The position numbers were made by a program, and so were the translations under genes. Source: Bathymodiolus japonicus methanotrophic gill symbiont (GTDB taxonomy: Bacteria > Pseudomonadota > Gammaproteobacteria > Methylococcales > Methylomonadaceae). Taken from it: a DNA stretch of 64,000 nucleotides. The stretch is from the NCBI RefSeq assembly GCF_019721995.1, contig NZ_BLYC01000001.1:248001-312000 (forward strand), read 5' to 3'. Of this stretch, positions 10,192 to 57,495 are shown in pieces. A model generated the notes under the pieces. It worked only from the letters and a program-made list of their open reading frames with translations, searched no databases and was not told the origin of the DNA. Position 1 is the stretch's first letter. Each line of letters begins with the position of its first letter.

Positions 10192-10299
10192 ATGCTACCT
10201 CACGAAATTCCGGGACTCCTGTCGCCGTAATTCGTTCACCTACGCAGCGAATAGGAGATGCTCCAGCCGCCCTGCGTCCGCCACAGACTGAGCTGCTTT
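10192..10299 (-). repeat. 260-type modular repeat, partial
   Basis: Tail half of the 260-type repeat in reverse orientation (starts CAGGCGCGCC), broken at its GACTGAGC hairpin, where a 280-type copy begins. The hairpin loop appears in inverted orientation relative to the arm, so the break probably involved a local inversion. The bases between tilS and this repeat (10052-10191) hold nothing recognisable. Confidence 0.75.
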
Positions 10300-10579
10300 C
10301 GCTGAAAATCATGGAAACGGAGCTTAGCGAAGTGGTGATTTTTAGCCCCTGATAGGCGACAGGGCAATTCGCTGATTCGACGTGTGCTAGCAGCACGCGA
10401 GAGGAGCAAGAATTGCATTCCGAATAGCCGTCCAGCCAGTGAGGTAGTAATGACGAAGCGGCTTTTGTGCGTAGTCGTTGCGGACGCAGGGCGTTCAGGG
10501 CATCTCCCATCCGCTGCGTAGGTGAACGAATTATGGCGACAGGAGTCCCAGAATTTCGTGAGGTAGCATGGCGCGCCTG
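10300..10579 (+). repeat. 280-type modular repeat
   Basis: Full 280-bp copy: head hairpin CGCTGAAAATCA...TGATTTTTAG, hairpins CCCTG/CAGGG and CGTGTGCT/AGCACGCG, and tail ending GCGCGCCTG. It is joined to the partial 260-type copy on the left and an IS3 fragment on the right. Confidence 0.88.
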
Positions 10580-11125
10580 GTCCATACCTGGTTCGCTTTT
10601 TCTGCGATATAACTCGTTGGCTTGGAGGTGTTTTTGCGCTCTTTAGCCCGCCCTCTATCGCTGAAAATCCTGGAAACGGAGCTTTAGCGAAGTGAAGATT
10701 TTTAGTCCGCGATAGCCGTAGGGCCGTTGTTTTGTCGGAGTCTGAGCGTTAGCGAAGGTGGAGACAAAATAAAAGGCCATCCGACACGGCGTCAAGTCAT
10801 TTGGAGCCTATGTTCCGACCCCTTGTTGGGTCGGGACGAGGTGACGAGGACGAATCGGGGCCGCCGGAGGCATTAGTGGTCGCGTTAAGTTTTTGCCGCT
10901 TGCTTGGGCTGGGATGCCCAAAACAAGCTTTCGCAAAAATAGCGACTCCCCGCGTGTGACTTGTTCTGCTTTATGCAACACTCGATAAAATGATGATTCG
11001 GAGGCAATGTAGATGCCTTTGTCTGCCAGGATAGGGACGATTTGACTCGGTGGTAAATTGGCATACTCGTCCTCATTACAGGTCATTAAAATAGCGAGTT
11101 GCTCATATTCGCTTAATTTATTATT
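10580..11125 (-). pseudogene. IS3-family transposase OrfB fragment, interrupted by a 295-type repeat
   Basis: Minus-strand remnant whose translation reads LPPSQIVPILADKGIYIASE, SSFYRVLHKAEQVT and then, after removing the 295-bp repeat at 10659-10953, HRGRAKERKNTSKPTSYIAE. This is the N-terminal region of an IS3-family OrfB before the integrase core. The catalytic core is absent: the fragment is cut at 10580 by a 280-type repeat and at 11125 by an ISb end. Precise removal of the repeat restores the codons for THRG. Confidence 0.8.
10659..10953 (+). repeat. 295-type modular repeat
   Basis: 295-bp copy from CGCTGAAAATCC to GCGACTCCCCGC, inserted in the IS3 fragment. The flanks CCCTCTAT and GTGTGACTT join to give the expected uninterrupted coding sequence, with no target duplication. 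Internal hairpins include CCGACCC/GGGTCGG and GGGC/GCCC within GCTTG/CAAGC. Confidence 0.88.
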
Positions 11126-11785
11126 ACTCGATGTTCAAGTTTTTCCATCCCATTGCCATCAAACTCTTACCTTCACCCAGCAGAACAATACTTTAATGAT
11201 GCTGTTGGCCCTAAGCGCCCTAAATCTCTGCCAATCATATGTTTTCCTGATGGCATCAGTTGAAACACATCCTTTATTAATTCACCTAACTCTTTCAGCT
11301 TATCACCAGGATCTGGAAACTCTAGCAATGACGTGATGAACTCAAGCAGTCGCTGAAAATCAGGGAAACGTAGCCTAAGCGAAGTGATGATTTTTAGTCC
11401 GCGATAGCCGTAGGGCCGTTGTTTTGTCGGAGTCTGAGCGTTAGCGAAGGTGGAGACAAAATAAAAGGCCATCCGACACGGCGTCAAGTCATTTGGAGCC
11501 TATGTTCCGACCCCTTGTTGGGTCGGGACGAGGTGACGAGGACGAATCGGGGCCGCCGGAGGCATAAGTGGTCGCGTTAAGTTTTTGCTGCTTGCTTGGG
11601 CTGGGATGCCCAAAACAAGCTTTCGCAAAAATAGCGACTCCCCGCACATCCATTTGAGACTTGCGCTGTAAGCTTCCTACGGTATACGCAGGTAGTTTGC
11701 TTTCAATGCGGGCTATTTGCTCTGGGTGAAGGAGAAGGCAATGGTCAAACAAAAGACTCAGAATCAGGCCACGGCTTGATCCCTC
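11126..11785 (-). pseudogene. IS4-family (ISb) transposase C-terminal fragment, interrupted by a 295-type repeat
   Basis: Minus-strand ISb piece starting with the element end ACTCGATGTTCAAGTT and covering the last part of the transposase (EGSSRGLILSLLF, then SLLEFPDPGDKLKEL). It is split at 11351-11645 by a 295-bp repeat and cut off at 11786 by a 260-bp repeat. Dead. Confidence 0.85.
11351..11645 (+). repeat. 295-type modular repeat
   Basis: Full copy inside the ISb fragment. Left flank GAACTCAAGCAGT plus right flank ACATCCATTTGAG equals the uninterrupted sequence seen at 49855-49880, so the insertion is exact with no duplicated or lost base. Confidence 0.92.
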
Positions 11786-12045
11786 CGCTGTCAGCCCCGG
11801 ACGGGCTGATAGTCTCCAGAAGGCGCAGGGAAATTTGCCAATCCGAAGTGCGCGATAGCGCGCGAGGGAGGCTAAAATTTTATCCCGAATAGCCGTAGAG
11901 CCATTTGTGGTAGCCATGACTGAGCTGCTTTGTGCTCAGTCTGTGGCGGACGCAGGGCGGCTGGAGCATCTCCTATTCGCTGCGTAGGTGAACGAATTAC
12001 GGCGACAGGAGTCCCGGAATTTCGTGAGGTAGCATGGCGCGTCTG
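11786..12045 (+). repeat. 260-type modular repeat
   Basis: Full 260-bp copy from CGCTGTCAGCCCC to GCGTCTG (one change in the tail). Its head hairpin is TCAGCCC/GGGCTGA. On the ISb side it sits exactly before a GAG codon of the transposase. The far side joins unrelated sequence. Confidence 0.88.
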
Positions 12046-12128
12046 TGTTACGTAGAATGACTATGCTCCTCTTGAGATAGTTTGGCCAGAATCAAAAATT
12101 CTTCGTAATCTTGGTAACTTTATTCCGT
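12046..12128 (+). other. Unidentified 3' gene fragment
   Basis: An open frame from about 12057 reads NDYAPLEIVWPESKILRN, then LGNFIP, with a stop supplied by TAA once the 295-type repeat at 12129 is removed. It sits just upstream of the hicB remnant, where a toxin gene might be expected, but the residues do not resemble HicA. Family not recognised. Confidence 0.3.
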
Positions 12129-12421
12129 CGCTGAAAATCAGGGAAACGGAGCCTAAGCGAAGTGATGATTTTTAGTCCGCGATAGCCGTAGGGCCGTTAT
12201 TTTGTCGGAGTCTGAGCGTTAGCGAAGGTGGAGACAAAATAAAAGGCCATCCGACACGGCGTCAAGTCATTTGGAGCCTATGTTCCGACCCCTTGTTGGG
12301 TCGGGACGAGGTGACGAGGACGAATCGGGGCCGCCGGAGGCATAAGTGGTCGCGTTAAGTTTTTGCTGCTTGCTTGGGCTGGGATGCCCAAAACAAGCTT
12401 TCGCAAAAATAGCGACTCCCC
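12129..12421 (+). repeat. 295-type modular repeat, last two bases missing
   Basis: As the other 295-type copies but ending CTCCCC instead of CTCCCCGC. It separates the unidentified fragment from the hicB remnant. Confidence 0.87.
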
Positions 12422-12448
12422 AATAAACTGCCTTATTGGAGACGAGTA

Positions 12449-12944
12449 ATGTTTAAGTATGAAACAATAATTTATTGGAGTGAAGAAGACCAGGCGTACT
12501 TAACAGAAGTTCCAGAGCTTCTTGGGTGTGTGGCGCATGGCGGTTCCCATGAAGCTGCGCTTGCAAATATACAAGAAGCAATTTAGCTGTGGATTGATGC
12601 TGCGCAACAGGCGCGCCATGCTACCTCACGAAATTCCGGGACTCCTGTCGCCATAATCCGTTCACCTACGCAGCGGATGGGAGATGCCTTGAACGCCCTG
12701 CGTCCGCAACGACTACGCACAAAAGCCGCTTCGTCATTACTACCTCACTGGCTGGACGGCTATTCGGAATGAAATTATTGCTCCTCTCGCGTGCTGCTAG
12801 CACACGTTGAATCAGCGAATTTCCCTGTCGCCTATCAGGGACTAAAAATCACCACTTCGCTAAGCTCCGTTTCCATGATTTTCAGCGGAGGAGCTTGGTG
12901 ATGTTATTCCCTAAGCCAAAGGGCGTAGATTAATGTACGCATAG
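12449..12944 (+). pseudogene. HicB-type antitoxin remnant
   Basis: Translation MFKYETIIYWSEEDQAYLTE, VPELLGCVAHGGSHEAALAN, IQEAI, stop, LWIDAAQ; then, after a 280-bp repeat (12608-12887), EELGDVIP, stop, AKGRRLMYA. This is the HicB partial RNase-H fold in family order. Two in-frame stops (TAG at 12584 and a TAA in the last part) plus the insertion make it dead. Excising the repeat restores GCG CAA GAG GAG exactly. No intact HicA partner is visible upstream. Confidence 0.8.
12608..12887 (-). repeat. 280-type modular repeat
   Basis: Full 280-bp copy in reverse orientation inside the hicB remnant, exactly between a CAA and a GAG codon, with no target duplication. Confidence 0.9.
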
Positions 12945-12975
12945 CTAGCCCTTTACAATTGATGTTAACCTAGGC

Positions 12976-13485
12976 CTATCTTTCAGAACGCGCGCGCCAT
13001 TGTTTAACTACATGCCAGCGCCAGAACAACCTCATGCCAAAATAACCAATCACTGATGATGCAATACCGAGTATCAGGCACCCGATAAGAAAAGGTCCGC
13101 CTATATCGCTTAGTCCTGTGGTCACGCTTTCTATAGAAAATTCAAAATCGGCAGCTGGTGAAGGCTGGTTCAGAGTCCATAAACCTATGCGATATGCAAA
13201 ATAAAACATCGGTGGCATGGTCAATGGGTTAGTGACCCAGACTAGCGCAACAGAAATAGGCAGGTTAGCGCGGAAATATAGTGCGAATACCGCTGCAATT
13301 ACCATTTGACCTGGTGTTGGAATCCATGCGACAAAAAGGCCAACAGCAAGAGCTGCTGCAACGGAGCGCCGGTTTAAGTGCCAGAGGTTTGGGTCATGCA
13401 GCTTATCGCCTAAAAAAGTCAGATGCTTATGCTCTTTAATGGACTCAGGTGAAGGCATGTATTTCTTGATAAGCTTTTTGGGCAT
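12976..13485 (-). CDS. DUF2062 family membrane protein
   Basis: Small inner-membrane protein of unknown function with the DUF2062 pattern (GLFVAWIPTPGQMVIAA, ALVWVTNPLTMPPMFYFAYR). The three to four hydrophobic segments and 169 aa length are normal for the family. In several gammaproteobacteria a DUF2062 gene lies next to comEC, as here (divergent, 182 bp before the comEC start). Function unknown. Confidence 0.85.
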   Translation of the reverse strand: MPKKLIKKYMPSPESIKEHKHLTFLGDKLHDPNLWHLNRRSVAAALAVGLFVAWIPTPGQMVIAAVFALYFRANLPISVALVWVTNPLTMPPMFYFAYRIGLWTLNQPSPAADFEFSIESVTTGLSDIGGPFLIGCLILGIASSVIGYFGMRLFWRWHVVKQWRARSER

Positions 13486-13666
13486 GATGACTGGTATTCA
13501 CTAAATATAAACAGTGGCTAAGTGTAGCAGGTTTTCGTGTACATTTTAAGCTGTGCAATTAATAGTTTTAACCGTATTGCAGGTCATAAAAATCAGCGTC
13601 ACGGTCGTTCTGAAAAAAAGCGTGTTAGCATACAAATATTGCAAGTATTTTCAGGGTGTGCGGTTT

Positions 13667-14348
13667 ATGTTTTTATCAGTTCTGTGCTTTTTCTCCGGCG
13701 TGCTGTTTGTTCAGCAGTGGAGAGAATTGCCTGATAATTTCATCTTGCTATCTGCGCTAATTATTGCCATTTTAATGGCCTATTATAATTATCGTCGCAG
13801 CGCCTATTTTCTTTTAGGCATAGTGTTTGCCAGTGCCTTTGCAAACGCTGAAAATCATGGAAACGTAGCTTAGCGAAGTGGTGATTCTTAGTCCCTGATA
13901 GGCGACAGGGCAATTTGCTGATTCGACGTGTGCTAGCAGCACGCGAGAGGAGCAAGAATTGCATTCCGAATAGCCGTCCAGCCAGTGAGGTAGTAATGAC
14001 GAAGCGGCTTTTGTGCGTAGTCGTTGCGGACGCAGGGCGTTCAGGGCATCTCCCATCCGCTGCGTAGGTGAACGAATTATGGCGACAGGAGTCCCGGAAT
14101 TTCGTGAGGTAGCATGGCGCGCCTCTGCAGCTTTTTTGGCTAAGGTTAATCCAGAGATTATTCTGGTTCCCGCTGACTCACCAAACCGCTTTGGCTTTCC
14201 TCATGCAGAAGTTGTTAATCGCTACAAAGCAATAGCCGCAAAGTACTTTATTAGCGGCGAGTCTGGAGCTATTAGCGTTACCATATCTAAAAATAAAAGT
14301 AAGCTAGAAGGCTATAGAGACAAGCATAGTCACTACTGGAATAAGTAA
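13667..14348 (+). pseudogene. comEC: ComEC/Rec2 DNA-uptake channel, gutted
   Basis: ComEC carries transforming DNA across the inner membrane. Only the two ends remain. The N-terminal membrane segment is at 13667-13845 (MFLSVLCFFSGVLFVQQW to FLLGIVFASAFAN), and the last about 75 residues follow the repeat at about 14125-14348 (SAAFLAKVNPEIILVPADS, FGFPHAEVVNRYKA), matching the end of the metallo-beta-lactamase-like domain. A 280-type repeat sits where roughly 600 codons of channel and nuclease-like domain should be. Loss of natural transformation by this route is inferred. Confidence 0.82.
13846..14124 (+). repeat. 280-type modular repeat at the comEC deletion
   Basis: Starts with the CGCTGAAAATCA head and ends GCGCGCCT, with the terminal base ambiguous at the junction. 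It lies precisely between the two comEC ends, suggesting that recombination between two copies, or an insertion with a large deletion, removed the middle. Confidence 0.87.
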
Positions 14349-14384
14349 AAAATAATAACCAAGGCATTTACTATGGAATTAAAT

Positions 14385-14401
14385 AGGACTAAAATAGTAC
14401 T
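14385..14401 (+). promoter_or_regulatory. Putative Rrf2-type operator of the suf operon
   Basis: Near-palindrome AGGACTA-AAA-TAGTACT (half sites match 6 of 7) located 17 bp upstream of the regulator start, with GGAGAGG as ribosome-binding site in between. Position and form fit autoregulation by the IscR/SufR-like regulator. Confidence 0.45.
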
Positions 14402-14418
14402 ACATTGAAGGAGAGGAC

Positions 14419-14874
14419 ATGTTACGTCTAGGTAAAATGACTGACTATGCAACAGTTATCCTGAGTTTTATGGCAAAAAATCCAGAGCAAATGCATGCTG
14501 CGCTGGAAGTTTCGACAGTCACTGGGGTTACCCTGCCTACTGTTAGTAAAATTTTGAAGCTATTAGTTAAAGCAAAAGTATTAAGTTCTATTCGAGGAGC
14601 AAAGGGTGGTTATGTCTTAGTGCAAACACCTGAAAAAATTACTGTGGCATCGGTGATTACAGCTTTAGAAGGGCCAATATCTTTAACTGAGTGTAGCCAT
14701 TCTGATCATAGTTGTGATCAGGTTTCAGGTTGTCAAATTGGTAATAACTGGCGACTAATCAATCAAGCCGTGCAGCAAGCTTTAGAGTCAGTGACCTTAG
14801 CTGATATGTTGTTACCTGTTAACCCTCCGCAAGAAATTACTGTGCCAGTGGCCAGTTTGTATCGTTTAAAATAG
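14419..14874 (+). CDS. sufR: SUF system Fe-S assembly regulator, Rrf2 family
   Basis: Winged-helix Rrf2 regulator of the kind that opens suf operons in xanthomonads and relatives. The recognition region SKILKLLVKAKVLSSIRGAK is followed by KGGYVLVQTP. Cysteines 92, 99 and 105 can hold a 2Fe-2S cluster as in IscR, so DNA binding probably responds to cluster status. 151 aa, strong ribosome-binding site. It is the first gene of sufR-B-C-D-S-U with only 13 bp to sufB. The sufR name is used by analogy; the protein is not the cyanobacterial SufR. Confidence 0.85.
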   Translation: MLRLGKMTDYATVILSFMAKNPEQMHAALEVSTVTGVTLPTVSKILKLLVKAKVLSSIRGAKGGYVLVQTPEKITVASVITALEGPISLTECSHSDHSCDQVSGCQIGNNWRLINQAVQQALESVTLADMLLPVNPPQEITVPVASLYRLK

Positions 14875-14887
14875 ATAAAGAGTACTT

Positions 14888-16336
14888 ATGTCAACCAGCG
14901 CACAAGAAATTGATAGTTATATAGGTCAAAAGTATAAAGACGGCTTTGTGACCGACGTGGAAGTGGATACCTTTCCACCGGGTCTGGATGAGCAGGTTAT
15001 TGCCAAACTTTCGGCGATTAAAGGTGAGCCAGAGTTTATGCTGGAATATCGCTTAAAAGCTTTTCGCCACTGGCAAACCATGACTGAGCCAAATTGGGCG
15101 CAGTTAAATATTGAACCGATTGATTATCAGTCAATTAGTTATTATTCAGCGCCTAAAAAAGACTCAGATAAGCCGCAAAGCCTGGATGAAATTGACCCGG
15201 AATTGCTAGAAACCTATAAAAAACTGGGTATCCCTCTGGATGAGCAGGAGCGCTTAGCAGGTGTTGCGGTTGATGCTGTATTTGATAGTGTTTCAGTTGC
15301 GACTACATTTAAAGGTAAATTAAAAGATGCGGGGGTTATTTTCTGCCCTATTTCCGAGGCCTTGCAAGAATATCCCGACCTAGTAAAGCAGTATTTAGGA
15401 ACGGTTGTTCCTTCCGGTGATAATTTTTTTGCTGCTTTAAATGCAGCGGTGTTTACCGATGGCTCTTTTGTTTACATTCCTAAAGGTGTCCGTTGTCCGA
15501 TGGAATTGTCTACGTATTTTAGAATTAATGCGGCCAACACAGGACAATTTGAACGTACTTTGATTATTGCTGATGAGGATAGTCATGTTAGCTATTTAGA
15601 AGGCTGTACCGCACCGATGCGTGATGAAAATCAATTGCATGCGGCAGTAGTGGAATTAGTTGTCATGGATAACGCGGAGATTAAATACTCGACAGTTCAG
15701 AACTGGTACCCAGGCGACGAAAATGGAGTGGGTGGCATATATAACTTTGTCACCAAGCGTGCAGAGTGCCGTGGAGCAAACTCAAAGGTTTCCTGGACAC
15801 AGGTAGAAACGGGTTCTGCGATTACCTGGAAATATCCTAGTTGTGTATTATTGGGCGATAACTCGGTGGGTGAATTCTATTCGGTTGCGGTGACTAATAA
15901 TTATCAGCAAGCCGATACCGGAACTAAAATGATTCATATCGGTAAAAATACCCGCAGTACGATTATTTCCAAAGGCATATCTGCAGGGCGTTCGCAAAAC
16001 ACCTATCGCGGGCTGGTTAAGGTTGCTAAAAATGCGACAAACGCACGTAACTATACGCAGTGTGACTCCTTATTAGTGGGTGATAAATGCGGCGCACATA
16101 CGTTCCCTTATGTGGAAGTGAAACAACCTTCGGCACAAGTCGAGCATGAAGCGACCACCTCTAAAATTAGCGAAGACCAATTGTTTTTCTGTCAGCAACG
16201 TGGCATCTCTGCGGAAGATGCTGTTTCGATGATTGTTAATGGTTTTTGCAAAAGTGTATTCAAAGAATTACCCATGGAATTTGCCGTCGAAGCGCAGGCT
16301 TTATTAGGCATCAGTCTTGAAGGTTCGGTGGGTTAG
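14888..16336 (+). CDS. sufB: Fe-S cluster assembly protein SufB
   Basis: Scaffold subunit of the SufBC2D complex that assembles iron-sulfur clusters in the cytoplasm. At 482 aa it has the usual length. Typical blocks are visible: [79 protein letters not shown] and the C-terminal core [19 protein letters not shown] with the acceptor cysteine. 13 bp after the regulator and 69 bp before sufC. Confidence 0.96.
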
Positions 16337-16405
16337 AAATTTCTCCTATTCCCGCACAAAGTCGGGAGTCAGGCACAGTCCAAAAAATATTTCAGGTAAA
16401 AATAA

Positions 16406-24793: not shown

Positions 24794-25088
24794 GCGGGGA
24801 GTCGCTATTTTTGCGAAAGCTTGTTTTGGGCATCCCAGCCCAAGCAAGCAGCAAAAACTTAACGCGACCACTTATGCCTCCGGCGGCCCCGATTCGTCCT
24901 CGTCACCTCGTCCCGACCCAACAAGGGGTCGGAACATAGGCTCCAAATGACTTGACGCCGTGTCGGATGGCCTTTTATTTTGTCTCCACCTTCGCTAACG
25001 CTCAGACTCCGACAAAACAACGGCCCTACGGCTATCGCGGACTAAAAATCATCACTTCGCTTAGGCTACGTTTCCCTGATTTTCAGCG
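24794..25088 (-). repeat. 295-type modular repeat
   Basis: Full 295-bp copy in reverse orientation (GCGGGGAGTCGC...GATTTTCAGCG). Joining the flanks ATAACAAAA and TTAGAAATGG gives a frame reading GGYNKIRNGDGLIQDDINRL, an EF-hand/dockerin-like fragment, consistent with clean insertion. Confidence 0.9.
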
Positions 25089-25535: not shown

Positions 25536-25815
25536 CGCTGAAAATCATGGAAACGGAGCTTAGCGAAGTGGTGATTTTTAGTCCCTGATAGGCGACAGGG
25601 CAGTTCGCTGATTCGACGTGTGCTAGCAGCACGCGAGAGGAGCAAGAATTGCATTCCGAATAGCCGTCCAGCCAGTGAGGTAGTAATGACGAAGCGGCTT
25701 TTGTGCGTGGTCGTTGCGGACGCAGGGCGTTCAGGGCATCTCCCATCCGCTGCGTAGGTGAACGAATTATGGCGACAGGAGTCCCGGAATTTCGTGAGGT
25801 AGCATGGCGCGCCTG
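25536..25815 (+). repeat. 280-type modular repeat
   Basis: Full 280-bp copy. The left flank reads ISIRHLVQEKIGSRLKHL and the right begins AAC TAA, so it may lie between the last codons of an unidentified gene. The 190 bp to the right hold a possible 24-codon frame (METHIIQKLL...) and nothing else recognisable. Confidence 0.9.
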
Positions 25816-31990: not shown

Positions 31991-32548
31991 TTACTTAATA
32001 ACGCAAAACTCATTATGCTCTGCTGAGACGACTATTCGCTCAACTATGACTTCGGTCGCTGAAAATCATGGAAACGGAGCTTAGCGAAGTGGTGATTTTT
32101 AGTCCCTGATAGGCGACAGGGCAATTCGCTGATTCGACGTGTGCTAGCAGCACGCGAGAGGAGCAAGAATTGCATTCCGAATAGCCGTCCAGCCAGTGAG
32201 GTAGTAATGACGAAGCGTCTTTTGTGCGTAGTCGTTGCGGACGCAGGGCGTTCAGGGCATCTCCCATCCGCTGCGTAGGTGAACGAATTATGGCGACAGG
32301 AGTCCCGGAATTTCGTGAGGTAGCATGGCGCGCCTGAACTTTTGCCGGGAGTGGACCTTTATGACACCACTGGATAAAGTCGCGTATTGCCTGTGGTTCT
32401 CCAGCGGCGATAATTTATACATCACCAGCCGCTGTGTTTCTTACCGTGCCAATAATGCTTAATTTTCGGGCGGATTTTTGTGTTGAGGCTCTAAAAAAAC
32501 ACCTTGCACACGGCCTTTTACGGTGAGTTTATAGTATTCTAAGGGCAT
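31991..32548 (-). pseudogene. acyP: Acylphosphatase, inactivated
   Basis: Minus-strand gene whose ATG overlaps the rlmKL stop. Translation YYKLTVKGRVQGVF, frameshift, ASTQKSARKLSIIGTVRNTA, AGDV, stop, IIAAGEPQAIRDFIQWCHKG, PLPAKV; then, across a 280-bp repeat, TEVIVERIVVSAEHN. The catalytic-loop region and fold order are those of small acylphosphatases. It is broken three ways: a one-base deletion after GVF, a TAA in place of a tyrosine codon, and the repeat. Removing the repeat rejoins GTT and ACC exactly. Confidence 0.85.
32057..32336 (+). repeat. 280-type modular repeat
   Basis: Full 280-bp copy inside acyP, exactly between codons GTT and ACC (minus strand), with no duplicated bases. Confidence 0.92.
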
Positions 32549-36948: not shown

Positions 36949-37208
36949 CGCTGTCAGCCCCGGACGGGCTGATAGTCTCCAGAAGGCGCAGGGAAATTTG
37001 CCAATCCGAAGTGCGCGATAGCGCGCGAGGGAGGCTAAAATTTTATCCCGAATAGCCGTAGAGCCATTTGTGGTAGCCATGACTGAGCTGCTTTGTGCTC
37101 AGTCTGTGGCGGACGCAGGGCGGCTGGAGCATCTCCTATTCGCTGCGTAGGTGAACGAATTACGGCGACAGGAGTCCCGGAATTTCGTGAGGTAGCATGG
37201 CGCGCCTG
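36949..37208 (+). repeat. 260-type modular repeat
   Basis: Full 260-bp copy inside the IS30 transposase, exactly between CAA and GCG codons, with no target duplication. Confidence 0.92.
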
Positions 37209-47140: not shown

Positions 47141-47262
47141 ATGCCACATCGTCTTATCCACAGCCAACTCGATTTTATACTCTTCGAAGAAGGGAGATTT
47201 TCACCTTTAAACTGGTTACTGAGAGAAGGGCACTTAGACTATAACGACTATCTAGACCATCA
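47141..47262 (+). pseudogene. N-terminal fragment of an unidentified gene
   Basis: ATG 47141 reads MPHRLIHSQLDFILFEEGRF, SPLNWLLREGHLDYNDYLDH, Q, then runs into the ISc end. Composition looks like real protein, but the family is not recognised. The 174 bp after the IS cluster (50860-51033) begin with a frame AVAVKVIKLIDRVNQNALVA then stop, which could be the matching 3' end or another gene's. Confidence 0.4.
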
Positions 47263-47958
47263 GTGTTCCCCTATCAATTGAGGCCGTGAAACTAACCTCG
47301 CCACAAGAGAGCTCATAAAGCACTGTAAAGACATTCCTGTTATTATTGCGTTTTGAACTGCCCGAATGGTATACGAGCTGATACGAGATACTCTTGCCTG
47401 GAAAAATAATGGATTCACAAAACGATCTCGTTTTTGGGCCTGTTGCTGCCTTATCTCCAGAGCCTCGCTATATTTTTTATCCGATGGATGAATCAATTCT
47501 GGCTGTTGTGTTTTTGAAATCTCTTCAAACACGCGCATTAAATTATAGCTCATTGCAGTCAGGCGCATTTGATTTTCAAGTGAGCGGGTATTGGAAGACC
47601 AAGCTTTAGTTTCCTTGAAATTACTTTTAGTGTTATTGAATGTCTTTTCAATCGTCCATCGCTTGAAATACAGCATGGCAATGGTTCCAGGGTTAATAGT
47701 CATTGGCAAGGTTGTCACAAACCGGTGAAGTTTTCCGGTTTCTGGATCACGGTAATCCACCACGTTAAATTTGATGCCCTTGTTTTCGTACACACTGTAT
47801 GCTTCAACCCCTGTATTGATCTCATGGCGGGAGTCAAAAGGGATAGACTCAACCAGAGTCGCAATTGAATTTTCTTTTAGCATTGAAATCATGTAATTAG
47901 CATGTCGTTTCTGCCGATCCCACCAGACAAAGTCGGTGACGGCTTTATCGTAGACATA
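47260..47958 (-). pseudogene. IS4-family (ISc) transposase, N-terminally truncated copy 2
   Basis: Same protein as 5306-6112, from YVYDKAVTDFVWWD to the end (PQLIGEH), with the IS4 YREK residues. It is cut at a TA where the IS630 copy 2 abuts, so the N-terminal part is lost. Confidence 0.87.
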
Positions 47959-48001
47959 TAGTTTCTCAGATAAATAATTTCCAAATTTGGAGCGCTTAAA
48001 C

Positions 48002-49551
48002 TTAGGCGGTAACAACGAAATCTTCCCGCAATTTTTGCATAACACAAATCACTTTACTGGCATCATGCATATAAGTGTTAAAAGTTTGCACAACTGAATC
48101 ATGAAGATCTTCAAAAGTTTTAAAATACTTCATATGAGTCGAATCGCGTTTCGTATTTTTCCATAATTTCTCAATCGGATTAAAATCCGGCGAGAACGCA
48201 GGGAGACGTTCTACTGTCAAACGATCTACATTAGCTAACTTAAATTCCTTAATAACACCGCTTCCATGATACGGGGCACCATCTTCAATTAGAATAATCT
48301 TGCCTTTATAATAAGCCAGCAATTGTGTTAAAAACTCAACATAGCTTTCACCATTAAAACGCCCAGATGTTTCAGCGTGTTGTAATATCATTGGCTTATA
48401 ACTCTCGATTAAGACGTTGTCGGCAATAGAATATATCGCTTCCATAAAAAGCTTCTGTGTTGGATATTTCTCATTTTTTAAGCTTTTAAGAATAGCTAAA
48501 AATTCTTGAGGCAGCCCAGCTTCTTTTAAAAGTCTAAGTGACTTTGGTTTTATCTCATAAGCCAATGATTCTCGGTATTGAAAACTCCCTCCTTCGAGTT
48601 CGATCGTACCAAACATTTTCAACCCTTTTCGAATCCCTGATGTTTTCACTGTGGGTTGCTCTCCTATTGGAGCCCAGGTTCGTGCCAATGAACCCCACAT
48701 AGCAAATGACACCTCATCACCGAATAAAACGACACTCTTTTCTTCTACCGCCTTTTCCATAATGGCAGGCAATGTTTCTTCCAGCCACGTTTTTCTTTCA
48801 AGCTCGTACTTTTCTTCCGCTGTCAGCCCCGGACGGGCTGATAGTCTCCAGAAGGCGCAGGGAAATTTGCCAATCCGAAGTGCGCGATAGCGCGCGAGGG
48901 AGGCTAAAATTTTATCCCGAATAGCCGTAGAGCCATTTGTGGTAGCCATGACTGAGCTGCTTTGTGCTCAGTCTGTGGCGGACGCAGGGCGGCTGGAGCA
49001 TCTCCTATTCGCTGCGTAGGTGAACGAATTACGGCGACAGGAGTCCCGGAATTTCGTGAGGTAGCATGGCGCGCCTGTTCTTGGCGATCAGTCACAAAAC
49101 GAGCTTTTTGATAACTGAAGCCCAGTTTTTTCATTAGGCTTGATAAATAGTTCAAGTTATAACGAACTTCAAATTTTAACCAAATAAGCTCGGCAATCAT
49201 CGCAGTATTCCATATTCCACAATGAAATCCATTGTCTTCTGGGCCTTTCTTTATCAACTCAACCAATTTATTTTTCTGGTCTTTAGTTAACTTTGACTTC
49301 CGACCACGTCCTTGATAGTGTTGCCCTATTAACCAACCGACACCTTTATGCATGAATGTTTTCAGCCAATTTATAATGGTTTTTTCACAGACTCCCATTA
49401 GGCGTGCTATTTCTTTGATTCTCATGCATTCACTGAACCAGAGTAGAGCTTGAGTTAATCGATATAAACAAATATTACTTAGCTTGAGAGCTGTCGCCAT
49501 ATTTTTTTTTAGTCGGTCTACAATTGACTTTGAAAAAGTGAGGGATACCAT
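48002..49551 (-). pseudogene. IS630-family transposase interrupted by a 260-type repeat
   Basis: N-terminal HTH part (49551 down to 49078) and C-terminal DDE part (48817 to 48002) flank the repeat. Excision rejoins GAT CGC CAA GAA to GAA GAA AAG exactly as in copy 1. The C-terminal part also reads in frame from an ATG inside the repeat (48949). Confidence 0.88.
48818..49077 (+). repeat. 260-type modular repeat
   Basis: Full 260-bp copy inside the IS630 transposase between two GAA codons, with no target duplication; the cleanest case because copy 1 of the IS gives the empty site. Confidence 0.95.
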
Positions 49552-49640
49552 TTTTGACTGTTTCCGTTAGTGTTGGGACGAAAATTATAAGCCAGTTTCC
49601 CCTCTGTCGTTTTTGTTTGTTCGGAAATTAATTTTCTGAA

Positions 49641-50578
49641 ACTCGATGTTCAAGTTTTTCCATCCCATTGCCATCAAACTCTTACCTTCACCCAGCAGAA
49701 CAATACTTTAATGATGGTGTTGGCTCTAAGCGCCCTAAATCTCTGCCAATCATATGTTTTCCTGATGGCATCAGTTGAAACACATCCTTTATTAATTCAC
49801 CTAACTCTTTCAGCTTATCACCAGGATCTGGAAACTCTAGCAATGACGTGATGAACTCAAGCAGTACATCCATTTGAGACTTGCGCTGTAAGCTTCCTAC
49901 GGTATACGCAGGTAGTTTGCTTTCAATGCGGGCTATTTGCTCTGGGTGAAGGAGAAGGCAATGGTCAAACAAAAGACTCAGAACCAGGCCACGGCTTGAT
50001 CCCTCTTCATCTAATTGTTTGGCCTCACGCCCCCATCCTTCATAAAGCTTCCAGTCCTCAAAGAAAACCTCAATCAGCCATCTCAACGTATAGGCTTGAA
50101 TAATATCTTGTGTGCGCCAAGTCAGGTCTGTCGCCACTAAATAGCGATAGTCGTTTTCACCGTCATATTTTAAGGCAATGACAAAGCGTTTTTTACTGTG
50201 AGAACTCACCTTTAATCGTGCACTGCTGACAGTCACTTTAATCTCTTTGCCGCCACGTACACGTATTATCTGATCAATGCCTTTGTTAATCGAATTAAAG
50301 TAGCTCTCGACTGACCTTATTCTACCTCTATATTCAATATTTTGGTTTTTACGTAATTGGCTAATCACCTGCGAGCCTCCAGATTCTTTAGCGGCTTCGT
50401 CCATAAAGGCTTTTCACCATACAGCGCATCAGCCAGTACGCCTTTAATTTTAATCAGGCTATGCGCAACTTTAAACTCTTTTAATAAGCCTAATGCAATC
50501 TCTGTTTTGGTCGGGTAGGCACTGTCACGTTCAGGCTTAATAGGCCGGTCTTTTTTTGCTATACCGCTCTTTTTCAAC
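49641..50578 (-). pseudogene. IS4-family (ISb) transposase, N-terminally truncated copy
   Basis: From the element end ACTCGATGTTCAAG to the codons after DKEDKR (LKKSGIAKKDRP...). The YREK region and C-terminus are intact, but the N-terminal half is absent: a 280-type repeat starts at 50579 and unrelated sequence follows. One C-T style change (GLVLSLLF for GLILSLLF) relative to other copies. Confidence 0.87.
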
Positions 50579-50859
50579 CGCTGAAAATCCTGGAAACGGA
50601 GCTTTAGCGAAGTGAAGATTTTTAGTCCCTGATAGGCGACAGGGCAATTTGCTGATTCGACGTGTGCTAGCAGCACGCGAGAGGAGCAAGAATTGCATTC
50701 CGAATAGCCGTCCAGCCAGTGAGGTAGTAATGACGAAGCGGCTTTTGTGCGTAGTCGTTGCGGACGCAGGGCGTTCAGGGCATCTCCCATCCGCTGCGTA
50801 GGTGAACTAATTATGGCGACAGGAGTCCCGGAATTTCGTGAGGTAGCATGGCGCGCCTG
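50579..50859 (+). repeat. 280-type modular repeat at the same ISb site as the 56388 repeat
   Basis: 281 bp. Its head (CGCTGAAAATCCTGG...GTGAAGATTTTTAG) matches the head of the 295-type copy at 10659 rather than other 280 types. It abuts ISb at exactly the position where another ISb copy carries a 295-type repeat. Confidence 0.9.
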
Positions 50860-51831: not shown

Positions 51832-51855
51832 GGGTTTTAAATATAGGGCAAGATT

Positions 51856-52293
51856 TTAAACTTTAAGTGTAAAAGTCACGGGGCCATCATTCGTCAGTGA
51901 TACTTGCATATCAGCACCAAATTGTCCGGTCTGAATTTCGGCATAATGCTGCCGGGCATAACTGACTAGATAATTAAATAACTGCTCGCCTTTTTCAGGT
52001 GAAGCAGCAGGAGTAAAGCTAGGTCGGTTGCCAGAATTTGTATCAGCCGCCAGGGTAAATTGCGGCACGAGCAGCAAACCACCCTGAATTGCTTGTAAAT
52101 TCAGGTTCATACGGTTTTGCTCGTCGGGGAAAATGCGGTAATTGATAATACGCTCAAATAAGCGCTGCACCGAACTTTCTTCATCGTCTCTTTCTATCGC
52201 AACCAAGACCAGAATGCCGCGATTGATTCTAGCTACTTTCTGCCCTGCGATCGATACTTCTGCCTGTGTCACACGTTGAATAATTGTAATCAT
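51856..52293 (-). CDS. dtd: D-aminoacyl-tRNA deacylase
   Basis: 145 aa proofreading enzyme that removes D-amino acids from tRNA. The two Dtd motifs are visible: LVPQFTLAADTNSGNRPSF and NDGPVTFTL. Normal length; start MITIIQRVTQAEV typical. Confidence 0.94.
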   Translation of the reverse strand: MITIIQRVTQAEVSIAGQKVARINRGILVLVAIERDDEESSVQRLFERIINYRIFPDEQNRMNLNLQAIQGGLLLVPQFTLAADTNSGNRPSFTPAASPEKGEQLFNYLVSYARQHYAEIQTGQFGADMQVSLTNDGPVTFTLKV

Positions 52294-52308
52294 CTTACTG
52301 TGGATCTG

Positions 52309-52365
52309 GTAGGGCGTGGCTTTAGCCTGCCAACTTTAATAGGCGGACTAAAGGCACGCCTTACC
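52309..52365. repeat. Palindromic repeat between dtd and the ZIP gene
   Basis: GTAGGGCGTGGCTTTAGCC facing GGCGGACTAAAGGCACGCC and TTACC; a different but similarly built hairpin to the GCGGACT repeats. Confidence 0.65.
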
Positions 52366-52371
52366 TGGTAT

Positions 52372-53307
52372 TCAACCTAGCAGGCTTTCTAAAGCCAGCA
52401 TAATAATAAAGCCCATCATCAGGGCAAAGGTCGCATAACGGGAGCGTCCATTGGAGTGAGTTTCCGGGATAATCTCTTCAGAAATAACAAATAACATGGC
52501 ACCTGCAGCAAAACCCATGGCAAAAGGCAATAGTGGAGAAAAGACCGAGACCATGGTAATACCTAATAGCCCACCTACCGGTTCGACTAAACCTGTTAAT
52601 GTTGCAATGCCTACGGCTGTCCATTTGTTATAGCCTAGAGCAACCAGGGGCAGGGCAACTGCCATTCCTTCAGGAATATTTTGTAATGCAATGGCGATTG
52701 CCAGAACTATACCATTATGCAAGTCCCCGGTACCGAAGCTAACGCCTACAGACATACCTTCGGGAAAGTTATGAATGGTAATGGCAAATATAAACAGCCA
52801 GATTTTTTGTAAGGAGTCTGTGTGCACATTCAGGTCGTTTTTAAAATGAATATGCGGTAATTTATTATCTGCCAGATGCAGAAAAAATGCACCGAATAAC
52901 ATCCCCGCGGCGACCACCCAAAGACCTTTATCTAGCCATAATTGATTACCATACTCTATGCCTGGCACTATTAAAGAGAAAGACGTTGCTGCAAGCATGA
53001 CTCCCGCCGCACCACCGAGCAGGCCGTTATAGACATTATTGGAAACCTGTTTAAAAAAAACGGCAGGCAAAGCGCCTAAACCGGTAGCTAGGCCAGCTAA
53101 AATACTAGCAAAAAAGCCTATCATGGCAACTTTGCCAAACAGCAGATATAAACTGCCAAAGACAATGATTTGTAAGGTTATAAAAAGTGCAGCCAAAGTA
53201 AGCCAGCGCTGATTTCGAGGAAGTGCCTGTAATTTTTGATAATACGAATATGAGTTGAGTTGTGACTGGCAGTTAGCAAAAATATTTGTAAAATCTAAGT
53301 CGCTCAT
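52372..53307 (-). CDS. ZIP-family metal transporter
   Basis: 311 aa inner-membrane transporter with about eight helices. ZIP metal-site motifs HNFPEGMSVGVSFG (helix 4) and QNIPEGMAVALPL (helix 5), plus FAAGAMLFVISEEIIPETH. Likely moves zinc or iron inward; substrate not decided by sequence. The 219 bp upstream hold no gene. Confidence 0.92.
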   Translation of the reverse strand: MSDLDFTNIFANCQSQLNSYSYYQKLQALPRNQRWLTLAALFITLQIIVFGSLYLLFGKVAMIGFFASILAGLATGLGALPAVFFKQVSNNVYNGLLGGAAGVMLAATSFSLIVPGIEYGNQLWLDKGLWVVAAGMLFGAFFLHLADNKLPHIHFKNDLNVHTDSLQKIWLFIFAITIHNFPEGMSVGVSFGTGDLHNGIVLAIAIALQNIPEGMAVALPLVALGYNKWTAVGIATLTGLVEPVGGLLGITMVSVFSPLLPFAMGFAAGAMLFVISEEIIPETHSNGRSRYATFALMMGFIIMLALESLLG

Positions 53308-53526
53308 TATTTCCTCTGGATAATGTAATGTGATTGAATATTATTTATTAAAGTATAACATTAACAATGCTTTTAAAATCTATTAAACATGCCTGATCTT
53401 CGGGAATTTACTTTAACTCTTGTACACTGGAAAATGAACTATACAAGTAAAAACAGGACTTTAAAGCTTGTGCAGCACCTATTTGTCTTTGGGAACTGGT
53501 GTTGTTTTAAAGTGACTGGTTTAACA

Positions 53527-54345
53527 TTGAAAATTAATTTATTTTCCGTTCGTTCCAAAATAGGAGCGGTGCTATTGCTATTGTTATTGTTATGTACCGA
53601 TTTTGTTATGCAACTGATATCTATAAATGGGCGGATGAACAGTGCCAGTTGCATTATTCTGATATAAAGCACACGGGTGCTACAGCATTGACACTGCAGC
53701 AGGATTATAGTTTTTATACAGTGCAAAAAGTCTATGATGGCGATACAGTATTATTAAGTGATGGCCGTAAAATACGTTTATTGGGTATTAATACGCCTGA
53801 AATAGAACATTCCGGCAAGACTGCACAGGCAGGTGGGCAAGAAGCAAAGCAGTGGTTAAAGCAGTGATTATTGAACACTCGGGGCAGGCTGGAATTTGAT
53901 CAGCAAAAGCGCGATAAATATCAGCGTTATTTAGCCCATTTATTTACCGAACAAGGGGAGCATATCAATCTGCAACTAGTTCGGCGAGGCTATGCCAGTA
54001 TTAGCATCTACCCGCCCAATTTAATCTACTTGACTGAACTACTAAAGGCTGAGCAGGCGGCAGCAGCAGAACGTCTGGGCATCTGGAGCTATGCTGAATA
54101 TGCTGTAAAGCATGGGAGTGATCTTAATAAAAAAAACAGGCAAGGCTGGCAACGGATAGTCGGACGAGTTTTGCGCATTAAACGCACGATGAAAAGTAGC
54201 TATTTAAAAATAAGCGATAATTTTGCTATACGTATCAAACAAGCACACCTGTAATACTTTAATGCATTGGATTCACTAAAGGGTAAACAGATTGAGGCCA
54301 GAGGCTGGGTTAAACAACATAAAAACGGGTATTCTATGTTAGTAA
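53527..54345 (+). pseudogene. Secreted thermonuclease (DUF4124 plus SNase domain), multiply broken
   Basis: A signal-peptide-like start (GAVLLLLLLLCTDFVMQ) is in one frame and the rest, DIYKWADEQCQLHYSD (DUF4124-like) then VQKVYDGDTVLLSDGRKIRL and NTPEIEHSGKTAQAGGQEAK (SNase), is in another, so a frameshift lies near 53615. In-frame TGA at 53865 and TAA at 54252 follow, and the 3' end is cut by a MITE at 54346. The catalytic D-x-D and the later E/R region are still readable. Dead. Confidence 0.8.
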
Positions 54346-54549
54346 CTGAAGTTTCCCAATAATTATTTATGGTAAAATTGAAACTATGCTACAACTATAT
54401 GAAAAAAATAGTCTTTTCATTCGTTTCAAATGCTATTGCCTAAGGGGAATTAAGTAGGGGTTTGCTATAAACATGGCAAAACCACCTAAAATAAACCTCG
54501 ATACACCAGCATTGTGTATTTCAGCTACTCAATAATTGGGAAACTTCAG
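54346..54549 (-). mobile_element. MITE type 1, copy c
   Basis: 204 bp with the usual CTGAAGTTTCCC ends, truncating the nuclease pseudogene. No clean target duplication is seen, and the sequence to the right (54550-54754) does not continue the nuclease. Confidence 0.87.
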
Positions 54550-54754
54550 TTGCTAATTAACTCGGCTTTAAGTGCTAATTTATTGTAAAATTAGCCGTTT
54601 TCCGTAATCTCACATTCACCCTCTTTATAGCGCAGTAAGATATAGAATCCTAGAAACCGAAGTCGACCGCTAAAAACACTGTAAGTATCTGAATATTACA
54701 CTAATGATCGTAAAAACTTGTCACCTATTAGGTGGGTATCCCTCGCTTCACCTT

Positions 54755-55034
54755 CGCTGAAAATCATGGAAACGGAGCTTAGCGAAGTGGTGATTTTTAG
54801 TCCCTGATAGGCGACAGGGCAATTCGCTGATTCGACGTGTTCTAGCAGCACGCGAGAGGAGCAAGAATTGCATTCCGAATAGCCGTCCAGCCAGTGAGGT
54901 AGTAATGACGAAGCGGCTTTTGTGCGTAGTCGTTGCGGACGCAGGGCGTTCAGGGCATCTCCCATCCGCTGCGTAGGTGAACGAATTATGGCGACAGGAG
55001 TCCCGGAATTTCGTGAGGTAGCATGGCGCGCCTG
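54755..55034 (+). repeat. 280-type modular repeat upstream of nrdR
   Basis: Full 280-bp copy. The flanks CACCTATTAGGTGGGTAT... and TTTGTGAATAAATCTGCGCA resemble one continuous stretch at 24445-24510, a probable empty-site relative. It lies 136 bp before the nrdR start and could alter its promoter. Confidence 0.9.
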
Positions 55035-55493
55035 TTTGTGAATAAATCTGCGCATGAAATCCTGCGTTACTGCTCTTGCCAAGGGCTACGGCTATTGCCT
55101 GAGATCTGTACCTTGTTTTTTATGCGCAGATTTTCCACAAACTCTGTGTTCAACTGCGGTTTCTAGGATTATGCGTTGTCCATTCTGTACGGCTCAGGAT
55201 ACTCGGGTTATTGACTCCCGATTAGCGAATGAAGGCGATCAGGTGCGTCGTCGACGTGAGTGTGTGGTGTGTAAAGAGCGCTTTACATCCTATGAGGTTA
55301 CTGAATTTAATCTGCCCCGAATAGTAAAGCGCGATGGCTTGCGCGAGCCTTTCGATGAAAACAAGCTACGTGCAGGAATTTTACGCGCACTGGAAAAACG
55401 CCCGGTTAGCAGTGATCAGATAGAAGCTGAAGAAGTACCTAAACAAAGCAGCCTATAACCTACCTGAAGGTAGCACCACTCGAATATTTCCAT

Positions 55494-55541
55494 CGCTGAA
55501 AATCATGGAAACGGAGCTTAGCGAAGTGGTGATTTTCAGCG
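55494..55541. repeat. Solo 48-bp head hairpin
   Basis: CGCTGAAAATCA...TGATTTTCAGCG: the head module of the 280/295 repeats alone, closed by perfect 12-bp inverted ends. The surrounding 55436-55600 stretch is not assigned to any gene. Confidence 0.85.
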
Positions 55542-55575
55542 GGGGAAAGTTTATGCGGCCGGGGGGATTTACGCG

Positions 55576-55793
55576 TTGAATCTCAGAAGTGGGTTGCTCA
55601 TATTTCTTTGTCTGGTGACAAACGGAACTCAGAGACATCAAGAAATACCTGTGTTACGAGATCATATTGAAAAGCAAAACAAGGGAAATAACAGCTCTCA
55701 GAAACATCTCTATGTCTACGATAAAACCGTCACCGACTTTGCCTGGTGGGATCGGCAGAAACGACATGCTAATTACATGATCTCAATGCTAAA
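55576..55793 (+). pseudogene. IS4-family (ISc) transposase, 5' fragment of copy 3
   Basis: Reads LRSGLLIFLCLVTNGTQRHQ to HANYMISMLK, matching residues near the start of the other ISc copies, then stops at an ISb terminus. The matching 3' part is at 58254-58615; the middle codons are missing. Exact left boundary of ISc is uncertain. Confidence 0.8.
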
Positions 55794-56387
55794 ACTCGAT
55801 GTTCAAGTTTTTGATATTGAGAAGGTAAAATCAGGTATTCTGAGGTTGTTGTAATTTTATCGGTGTAATCCCATGTTAATGAATGCCCCAGCCACCTTTA
55901 TCCAAAGCTATATTGACGATTTAAATGATGCGCTCAATCAGCTAAAACCCGGAGCCGCTTTGACACGGATTCAAGCCGCTTGGTTGGGCACTTGTTTAAC
56001 GGGCATACTGCTAATGAACTCTGTTTGCTGGGCTAAGTTTGAGCGAGCAAGCCTTGAAGATTGCAAAGTAGCTGCATTATCCTGGGTGTTTCGTAAAGCA
56101 AGTATACCCTGGGACTGGTTGCTACGGGTGAGTGTGGTTTTAATTTTAAAACGTTATGGCATTACTGAAGGTGTGTTGGCCTTTGATGAATCAGACCGAG
56201 CACGATCTAAGTCTACAAAACGTATTTATAAGGTTTACAAGCAGAAACACAAAGGCTCCGGCGGGTATGTTAATGGACAAACGATAGTATTATTGCTGCT
56301 AGTTACCTCATCCATTACAGTGCCTGTCGGTTTTTTCTTTTATATGCCGGATCCAGCCTTAAAGCAGTGGGATAAAGAAGATAAACG

Positions 56388-56682
56388 TCGGGGAGTCGCT
56401 ATTTTTGCGAAAGCTTGTTTTGGGCATCCCAGCCCAAGCAAGCAGCAAAAACTTAACGCGACCACTTATGCCTCCGGCGGCCCCGATTCGTCCTCGTCAC
56501 CTCGTCCCGACCCAACAAGGGGTCGGAACATAGGCTCCAAATGACTTGACGCCGTGTCGGATGGCCTTTTATTTTGTCTCCACCTTCGCTAACGCTCAGA
56601 CTCCGACAAAACAACGGCCCTACGGCTATCGCGGACTAAAAATCTTCACTTCGCTTAGGCTACGTTTCCCTGATTTTCAGCG
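56388..56682 (-). repeat. 295-type modular repeat
   Basis: Reverse-orientation 295-bp copy (terminal G changed to T). Flanks GATAAACG and GTTGAAAAAG join to the uninterrupted ISb sequence seen at 3593-3612. Confidence 0.92.
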
Positions 56683-56920
56683 GTTGAAAAAGAGCGGTAT
56701 AGCAAAAAAAGATCGGCCTATTAAGCCTGAACGTGACAGTGCCTACCCGACCAAAACAGAGATTGCATTAGGCTTATTAAAAGAGTTTAAAGTTGCGCAT
56801 AGCCTGATTAAAATTAAAGGCGTACTGGCTGATGCGCTGTATGGTGAAAAAGCCTTTATGGACGAAGCCGCTAAAGAATCTGGAGGCTCGCAGGTGATTA
56901 GCCAATTACGTAAAAACCAA

Positions 56921-57495
56921 CGCTGAAAATCGCGGGGAGTCGCTATTTTTGCGAAAGCTTGTTTTGGGCATCCCAGTCCAAGCAAGCAGCAAAAACTTAA
57001 CGCGACCACTTATGCCTCCGGCGGCCCCGATTCGTCCTCGTCACCTCGTCCCGACCCAACAAGGGGTCGGAACATAGGCTCCAAATGACTTGACGCCATG
57101 TCGGATGGCCTTTTATTTTGTCTCCACCTTCGCTAACGCTCAGACTCCGACAAAACAACGGCCCTACGGCTATCGCGGACTAAAAATCATCACTTCGCTT
57201 AGGCTACGTTTCCCTGATTTTCAGCGATGGAAACGGAGCTTAGCGAAGTGGTGATTTTTAGTCCCTGATAGGCGACAGGGCAATTCGCTGATTCGACGTG
57301 TTCTAGCAGCACGCGAGAGGAGCAAGAATTGCATTCCGAATAGCCGTCCAGCCAGTGAGGTAGTAATGACGAAGCGGCTTTTGTGCGTAGTCGTTGCGGA
57401 CGCAGGGCGTTCAGGGCATCTCCCATCCGCTGCGTAGGTGAACGAATTATGGCGACAGGAGTCCCGGAATTTCGTGAGGTAGCATGGCGCGCCTG
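56921..57495 (+). repeat. 280-type modular repeat, interrupted by a nested 295-type repeat
   Basis: Bases 56921-56931 (CGCTGAAAATC) plus 57227-57495 add up to exactly 280 bp. Outer flanks AAAAACCAA and AATATTGAAT match the uninterrupted ISb sequence at 3830-3850, so this too is an exact insertion, between CAA and AAT codons. Confidence 0.93.
56932..57226 (-). repeat. 295-type modular repeat nested in a 280-type repeat
   Basis: Full 295-bp copy inserted within the head hairpin of the 280-type copy; CGCTGAAAATC and ATGGAAACGG on either side rejoin perfectly. Confidence 0.95.

Follow-up and report, generated by a model that had tools for sequence, protein, structure and literature searches.

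Short gene-free elements with a conserved folded core and a one-base target rule in the genome of a Bathymodiolus gill symbiont

Elements in the window

We have analyzed a family of short, repeated, gene-free elements in a stretch of 64,000 nucleotides (the window) from the Bathymodiolus japonicus methanotrophic gill symbiont, located in a genome of 4.97 Mb in 109 contigs. The elements insert exactly, nearly always behind a C-NNN motif, share one folded core and, in the reading towards which we lean, move as single-stranded DNA. BLAST searches with one reference copy each of a 260-bp, a 280-bp and a 295-bp type located 20 copies or fragments in the window (Table 1): eight of the 280 type, three of the 260 type, six of the 295 type, two fragments and one 48-bp palindrome that consists only of the element head. 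A pattern of the 62-base tail, with up to 3 mismatches, matched at 13 places in the window and at none in 100 shuffled sequences. The elements run from CGCTG to GGCGCGCCTG or CCCCGA and have no terminal inverted repeats.

An earlier note, made from the letters of the window, had described a repeat family of about 20 copies, and both the family and the positions of its members were essentially right. It took the copy at 12129 for a partial one, where there is in fact a full 295-type element, and its list lacked the 48-bp palindrome. The opening CGCTG that it ascribed to all copies is found in those on the plus strand, while the minus-strand copies end in CAGCG. The head common to the 280 and 295 types is seen by BLAST as well, and the elements are indeed GC-rich (0.54-0.58 against 0.43). 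The 280 and 260 types are similar in the proposed common tail of about 65 bp, but their likeness (about 80%) spans nearly the whole length. The suggestion of interchangeable modules thus holds only in part: heads and 3' ends do occur in differing combinations, but the 280 and 260 types are diverged relatives along nearly their full length and all types contain one structured core.

Seven full elements and one fragment are packed in 4 kb of the window (10182-14125). Repeated copies of insertion sequences (IS), with DDE_Tnp_1 and DDE_3 transposases in pieces, lie at 2087-6125, 47248-50580 and 55596-58628 and serve as filled or empty sites for the small elements.

Table 1. Members of the element family in the window, by window position
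Feature	Position	Strand	Evidence and remarks
280-type fragment (positions 51-280)	5076..5305	+	BLAST; 5' part removed by another insertion, flank ends ACTTGAACATCGAG
260-type fragment (positions 149-260)	10182..10293	-	BLAST
280-type full copy	10300..10579	+	BLAST; core model match 10347-10503
295-type full copy	10659..10953	+	BLAST, core model; empty site elsewhere
295-type full copy (reference)	11351..11645	+	BLAST, core model; empty site elsewhere
260-type full copy	11786..12045	+	BLAST, core model
295-type full copy	12129..12423	+	BLAST, core model
280-type full copy	12608..12887	-	BLAST; core match on minus strand, E 0.025
280-type copy, last base C instead of G	13846..14125	+	BLAST, core model
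295-type full copy	24794..25088	-	BLAST, core model
280-type full copy (reference)	25536..25815	+	BLAST, core model
280-type full copy	32057..32336	+	BLAST, core model
260-type full copy (reference)	36949..37208	+	BLAST, core model
260-type full copy within IS copy	48818..49077	+	BLAST, core model; empty site found
280-type full copy, 281 bp	50579..50859	+	BLAST, core model
280-type full copy	54755..55034	+	BLAST, core model; sole empty site diverged (87%), junction mismatched
Head-only perfect palindrome CGCTG..CAGCG, 48 bp	55494..55541	+	Read as two inverted insertions fused
295-type full copy within IS copy	56388..56682	-	BLAST, core model; empty site found
280-type copy split by nested 295	56921..57495 (parts 56921-56931 and 57227-57495)	+	BLAST, core model
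295-type full copy nested after base 11 of 280 copy	56932..57226	-	BLAST, core model

Abundance and age

The sequence read comprises 1,259,111 bases: the window, parts of contigs C1, C2 and C7, and all of C4 and C5. These stretches are not a random sample, since C1 contains the window and C2, C4, C5 and C7 are contigs with listed matches. They hold 387 copies or fragments, of which 317 are full: 114 of the 295 type, 112 of the 280 type, 87 of the 260 type and 4 of a fourth type, in which a 295-like body lies below a different head. Together the elements occupy 98,453 bases, or 7.8% of the bases read; to our knowledge, about 8% of bases in one short gene-free family is among the densest such loads. 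Extrapolation to the whole genome gives roughly 1,500 copies, a figure that is rough because the stretches were not randomly drawn.

The standard lengths of 260, 280 or 295 bp are kept by 290 of the 317 full copies. Mean pairwise identity among standard-length copies is 0.996 for the 260 type, 0.988 for the 280 type and 0.984 for the 295 type, and 50 of the 85 such copies of the 260 type are one identical sequence. The copies are therefore young. Another genome, G126, which is closed, contains 22 copies with a mean identity of 99.9%. Nesting of copies within one another is common, and the 70 partial matches include 38 that adjoin another copy, 10 that adjoin an IS end and 1 at a contig end, with 21 remaining. 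Larger duplications do not explain the repeats, given that 293 different 15-base left flanks are found among the 317 full copies.

In two derivatives of the 280 type, each of 100 bp and in a different target (L043, C1:167260-167359; L176, C4:76363-76462), the core has been lost by deletion between two GGCGACAGG repeats. This may mean that the core is dispensable in cis, or the two may be independent deletions. A further diverged relative, about 70% alike to the 280 type and with a CGCTAAAAAT head, is found at L163 (C2:206287-206530 and 209905-210146).

Insertion sites

The first 464 kb contain 126 full copies, whose joined flanks were compared with the same 464 kb and with other loci. Homologous empty sites were found for 45 of these copies, many in other copies of repeated sequences. 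At 44 of these sites the junctions differ by the insert alone, and the other has a one-base flank difference beside it; the matches are poor in two cases (80% and 87%). No target duplication is seen at any of the 45 sites. Insertion is exact, with no duplication and no loss, and the dinucleotide that closes the 295 type (GA, AA, GC or GT) is part of the insert. The earlier view of these repeats as mobile and non-autonomous is supported by the empty sites, by the near-identity of the copies and by the fact that no gene-bearing copy was seen. Ordinary miniature inverted-repeat transposable elements (MITEs) of a DDE insertion sequence would likewise be short, abundant and without genes, but the lack of both terminal inverted repeats and target duplication refutes that origin, to which we give practically no credence.

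Target sites were counted among the full copies, the 70 partial matches being excluded, and copies with an identical 15-base left flank were counted once, which reduces 317 copies to 293 distinct sites. The base at -4 of the left flank is C in 287 of these, against a local background of 0.20 for C, and 5 of the 6 sites without it have C at -3. Position -5 is C in only 11 of the 293 sites, and -1 is G in only 6. The same C at -4 occurs in 21 of 22 copies in G126 and in 7 of 8 in the closed genome G061; in G184, which is also closed and belongs to another family, 39 of 40 copies have it. At the other end, 316 of the 317 full copies have C as the fourth base counted back from the insert's 3' end; the tails vary (CCTG; CCGA, CCAA, CCGC or CCGT; and CTGA in all 22 copies of G126) while this C is kept. 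C-NNN therefore stands directly before both joints on the same strand. The bases beside the insertion were also considered as a coupling sequence, an idea that was dropped because the empty sites show the CNNN already present in the target.

Four palindromic units of the form CGCTG..CAGCG have C at -4 on both sides, namely the one in the window and those at L163 (C2:205075-205103), L190 (C5:143101-143283) and L038 (C1:71277-71325). We considered them as self-primed snap-back copies with a free 5' end, and rejected this because the unit at C5:143101 has two different halves; the head-only palindromes are accordingly interpreted as pairs of inverted insertions that a deletion has fused.

Orientation

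Of the 317 full copies, 257 are oriented in agreement with the local GC skew and 60 against it, the plus strand of the element being the G-rich strand. In a 400-kb stretch of G184 with a skew of -0.086, there are 35 minus-strand and 5 plus-strand copies. The G-rich strand is taken as the lagging-strand template, and from the skew we infer that it is so here.

Three of the 317 full copies were skipped as overlapping when orientation was compared with that of genes. Frames of at least 120 codons are avoided: 184 of the 314 copies lie outside them, though such frames make up 76% of the sequence. The 130 copies inside are divided evenly, with 60 in sense and 70 in antisense orientation, so that the strand bias is unrelated to transcription and the copies are unlike introns. 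Self-splicing introns, spreading through reverse splicing, would have accounted for a conserved structure and for insertion without duplication. In this form the proposal is refuted by the even orientation, by the avoidance of frames and by the lack of a match to any intron family in Rfam, and we hold it to have almost no chance of being correct.

A conserved folded core

An alignment (A1) of 22 sequences of the 295 type, one per genome, contains two hairpins that covary, one at columns 2-50 and the other at 245-318. The structure predicted from it comprises 78 pairs, and 95.8% of the 1,715 cells in the 22 genomes do pair. Changes on both sides are found in 28 pairs, compared with 14.7 (sd 2.0) in shuffled alignments, none of which reached 28 in 500 trials, and with 5 to 11 in slid controls, although the comparison with the slid versions is flattered by deriving the structure from the alignment on which it is tested. 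Where pairs are usually Watson-Crick, exchanges to G-U occur in 61 cells and exchanges to A-C in 14, which shows the plus strand to be the one that folds. G-T wobble in single-stranded DNA could produce the same kind of excess. When individual copies were folded, a 260 copy (z -4.46) and a 295 copy (z -4.05) did better than their shuffles.

A covariance model of the core was built from 19 sequences, none of them a 280 or 260 copy. With E-values that are rough, it matches all eight 280 copies (E 1.4e-4 to 0.025), the three 260 copies (E 0.0021) and the six 295 copies of the window, in each case on the sense strand and over the full length of the model, and it matches nothing else in the window up to E = 1. 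This recovery of every full 280 and 260 copy unites all types in one family. The core most likely binds an enzyme or keeps the strand folded.

Rfam, which includes the HEARO family, gave no match in the window at the gathering score; the earlier note had not recognised the repeats as a named family. At E up to 10, a 741-base stretch with one 295 and one 260 copy gave two chance-level matches only. Structured RNA inside small mobile elements is known from HEARO or omega-RNA elements and from IStrons. The elements described here differ from these in that they have no Rfam match, show no sense bias in genes and occur mostly, among the hosts tested, in genomes without TnpB: of 13 element-bearing genomes, 11 gave no match to TnpB (PF07282), among them the symbiont's own, G126 and G184. 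A structured, RNA-like core in a short element that makes no duplication would suit an omega-RNA-like guide for the TnpB or IscB nucleases of IS200/IS605 elements. The TnpB and Rfam results stand against it and largely refute it for TnpB, IscB not having been searched, and we judge such a guide to be very improbable. We also doubt, though less strongly, a scheme in which the folded core itself belongs to the machinery: RNA made from the element would bind a nuclease, and together they would cut single-stranded DNA during replication, three bases past a C. If true, the family would be a single-strand transposon that depends on RNA and carries no gene, which would distinguish it from the TnpB/IscB, bridge-RNA and group II systems.

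Search for the enzyme

Profile searches for an enzyme covered the Y1 (PF01797), reverse transcriptase (RVT_1) and TnpB families. In the stretches of the symbiont genome that were read, no gene-bearing element was seen behind any head. In the closed genomes G061 and G126, 30 of the 31 exact head matches were read, and all 30 carry an ordinary element body; the enzyme thus probably acts in trans. Y1 domains are found in the symbiont genome, mostly as fragments together with an intact 222-aa RAYT-like gene, and in all 12 element-bearing genomes tested, none of them linked to the elements. At the Y1 loci of the symbiont and its relatives, element sequence occurs only in the form of ordinary copies, and no IS605-type partner with the same ends was found in this non-exhaustive reading; by eye, the ends of IS copies in G078, G086 and G113 differ from those of the elements.

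Two other RAYT loci were observed in passing. At L226 (G184:C1:3163757) an element copy lies near a RAYT-like gene, which was read as 148 aa and is possibly shortened by the element. At L235 (G126:C1:2383100-2387500) a 175-aa RAYT lies among REP-like repeats, and an element has inserted there without C at -4.

Reverse transcriptase genes occur in the symbiont genome (five RVT_1 matches) and in 11 of 12 relatives tested. They bring to mind a bacterial short interspersed element (SINE), of which an RNA copy would be reverse-transcribed into nicked or replicating DNA. The RNA-like covariation of one strand, with its excess of G-U over A-C, would follow, the replication-strand bias is also compatible with retrotransposition, and some of the 21 remaining fragments lack a 5' end. 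However, four of the five matches in the symbiont (L077, L079 and L080 on contigs C92, C102 and C85, with one tandem pair) are reverse transcriptases that we take, from their neighbourhood and general knowledge, to be of defence types (DRT or retron), and elements in the vicinity of the symbiont's reverse transcriptases are ordinary full copies. Both ends are kept in 317 of the 387 copies. Moreover, G184 has 40 full copies and no RVT_1 match at E up to 0.001, although its copies are some percent diverged and a reverse transcriptase may have been lost since. On the strength of G184, movement by reverse transcription, as a SINE or in the manner of a group II intron, was set aside, and we regard it as improbable.

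Distribution in other genomes

Within the same family, a 295-type query has matches in 106 of 151 genomes and 27 of 29 genera, the symbiont's own genome being counted, and a 280-type query in 62 of the 151. Across the class, 6 of 369 genomes have matches, including the symbiont's own and four from outside the family. The 40 full copies of G184 lie in 400 kb and have about 89-98% identity to the query copy. An exact 42-base pattern occurs at 6 or more loci in the Bathymodiolus platifrons methanotrophic gill symbiont. Four plasmid records match (Methylomonas, Methylobacter and Methyloprofundus, the last over 60 bases only), while phage records gave no match. A scan of 398 genomes of the phylum with the core model found the symbiont's own genome only, a result that says little on range because the filters lose weak matches. 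One 280-type copy (L018 1501-1779, in G086) lies among repeats that resemble a CRISPR array (TTTCTAAGCTGCCTGTACGGCAGTGAAC).

Mode of movement

We favour, with modest confidence, the view that these are gene-free elements that resemble palindrome-associated transposable elements (PATEs) and, like these and IS200/IS605, are transposed as single strands, by an HUH enzyme supplied in trans; from the sequence evidence we infer the single-stranded intermediate, the HUH enzyme and the use of the lagging-strand template. The plus strand would fold into a 5' hairpin (the head), the conserved core and a 3' hairpin. An HUH nuclease of the Y1 type would cut this strand three nucleotides past the C at both ends, that is, after the CNNN in the left flank and after the CNNN that forms the last four bases of the element. 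The ends would be joined with nothing duplicated, and the strand would be reinserted at a replication fork, into the lagging-strand template and directly after a C-NNN.

As described in the passages cited from PMC6006769, the IS200/IS605 transposases bind hairpins at both ends, cut one strand at two tetranucleotides, of which one flanks the left end and the other closes the right end, and insert into the lagging-strand template. With IS608 and ISDra2 of this group the present elements share the lack of duplication, the end hairpins and the replication-strand bias, and also the position of the cut tetranucleotides outside the left end and in the last four bases of the right end, although cutting is deduced here from the sequence and only one base of the four is fixed. 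They differ from the group in having no tnpA or tnpB inside, no guide 5' of the left hairpin, and a single C as the target.

The PATEs of Haloquadratum, gene-free relatives of IS605, are characterised in the portion cited of PMC3119063 by palindromes near their termini and by the absence of terminal inverted repeats, of target duplication and of a transposase gene. Our elements resemble them in all these respects and are likewise too short to encode a transposase. PATE palindromes, according to the same portion, resemble those of IS605-type transposons, whereas no such partner was found here, and 177-194 PATE copies were counted in two strains, compared with our extrapolated number of about 1,500. 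The covarying core of about 160 nt and the one-base target code also set our elements apart from PATEs. Since the shared ends and the guide were not found, we do not claim membership in either the PATEs or IS200/IS605 proper.

REP, REPIN and BIME sequences with their RAYT (TnpAREP) appear in the cited parts of PMC8266576 and PMC3733652 as palindromes in high copy number, presumed to be mobilised in trans by a solitary HUH protein, with C at the cut site (C|T), and in both features they are like the present family. They are described there as 20-65 nt long, with a GTAG foot, and as often flanking the RAYT gene. The elements here are mostly 260-310 nt, the foot of the head is CG|CTG without GTAG, and the RAYT loci that were read have other palindromes.

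Several observations weigh against movement by an HUH enzyme. No enzyme was tied to the elements in the searches made, which did not extend to serine and tyrosine recombinases, IS91, IS110 or IscB. The presence of Y1 domains in 12 of 12 genomes is weak evidence, because Y1 genes are very widespread. By eye, the 222-aa RAYT-like gene of the symbiont is flanked by other palindromes. RAYT was rejected as a partner when its homologues and the 295 type were compared in 151 genomes, where 70 have both, 36 the element only, 26 RAYT only and 19 neither (p = 0.36). An element copy was found at 3 of 40 Y1 loci of relatives, two of these being the same gene, and it resembles an ordinary insertion. IS608 is described in PMC5934647 as recognising a specific tetranucleotide, not one base. 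In IS200/IS605 the guide tetranucleotides precede the foot of the hairpin on its 5' side, whereas the head hairpin here starts at base 2; the conserved GATAG/AGAAG was considered as a guide that pairs with the target and was rejected, the targets of the subtypes showing no difference. The two sites are not recognised identically, since -5 is rarely C in the left flank while the fifth base from the 3' end is C in all 118 copies of the two 295 types. A 280 copy folds no better than its shuffles (z 0.21 as RNA, -0.15 as DNA). Finally, nesting, other insertions and contig edges did not account for 21 of the 70 fragments, and several of these lack a 5' or a 3' end.

Some of these points would suit a different enzyme. 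The same ends might be cut and joined by a non-HUH recombinase (serine, tyrosine or other), acting on double- or single-stranded DNA. That no enzyme was found among the Y1, reverse transcriptase and TnpB families searched would then be expected, and the one-base target rule without an obvious guide is unlike known HUH transposons. On the other hand, the replication bias and the C-NNN on the same strand at both ends are predicted by single-strand HUH transposition and not obviously by double-strand recombinases. We consider a non-HUH recombinase rather unlikely, while it is the alternative to HUH transposition that we take most seriously.

Novelty and significance

No description of this family was found in the open-licence literature, as judged by title or the start of the abstract among the best-ranked matches. 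The passages cited from PMC10652631, on the G. platifrons symbiont, treat insertion sequences and do not mention these elements, and those from PMC4853749 concern other MITEs in a giant sulfur bacterium. What is new, and sets the family apart from PATEs and REPs, is that a one-base code governs both joints, that the folded core is conserved and that the load reaches about 8% of bases; elements of this kind are already known.

Direct tests of the mechanism are made possible by the one-base code, by the replication bias and by a core that compensatory changes have preserved from genus to genus. An obvious genome in which to seek the enzyme is G126, which is closed and whose 22 copies are 99.9% identical. 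A nearly sequence-free single-strand integrator would be of interest to tool builders.

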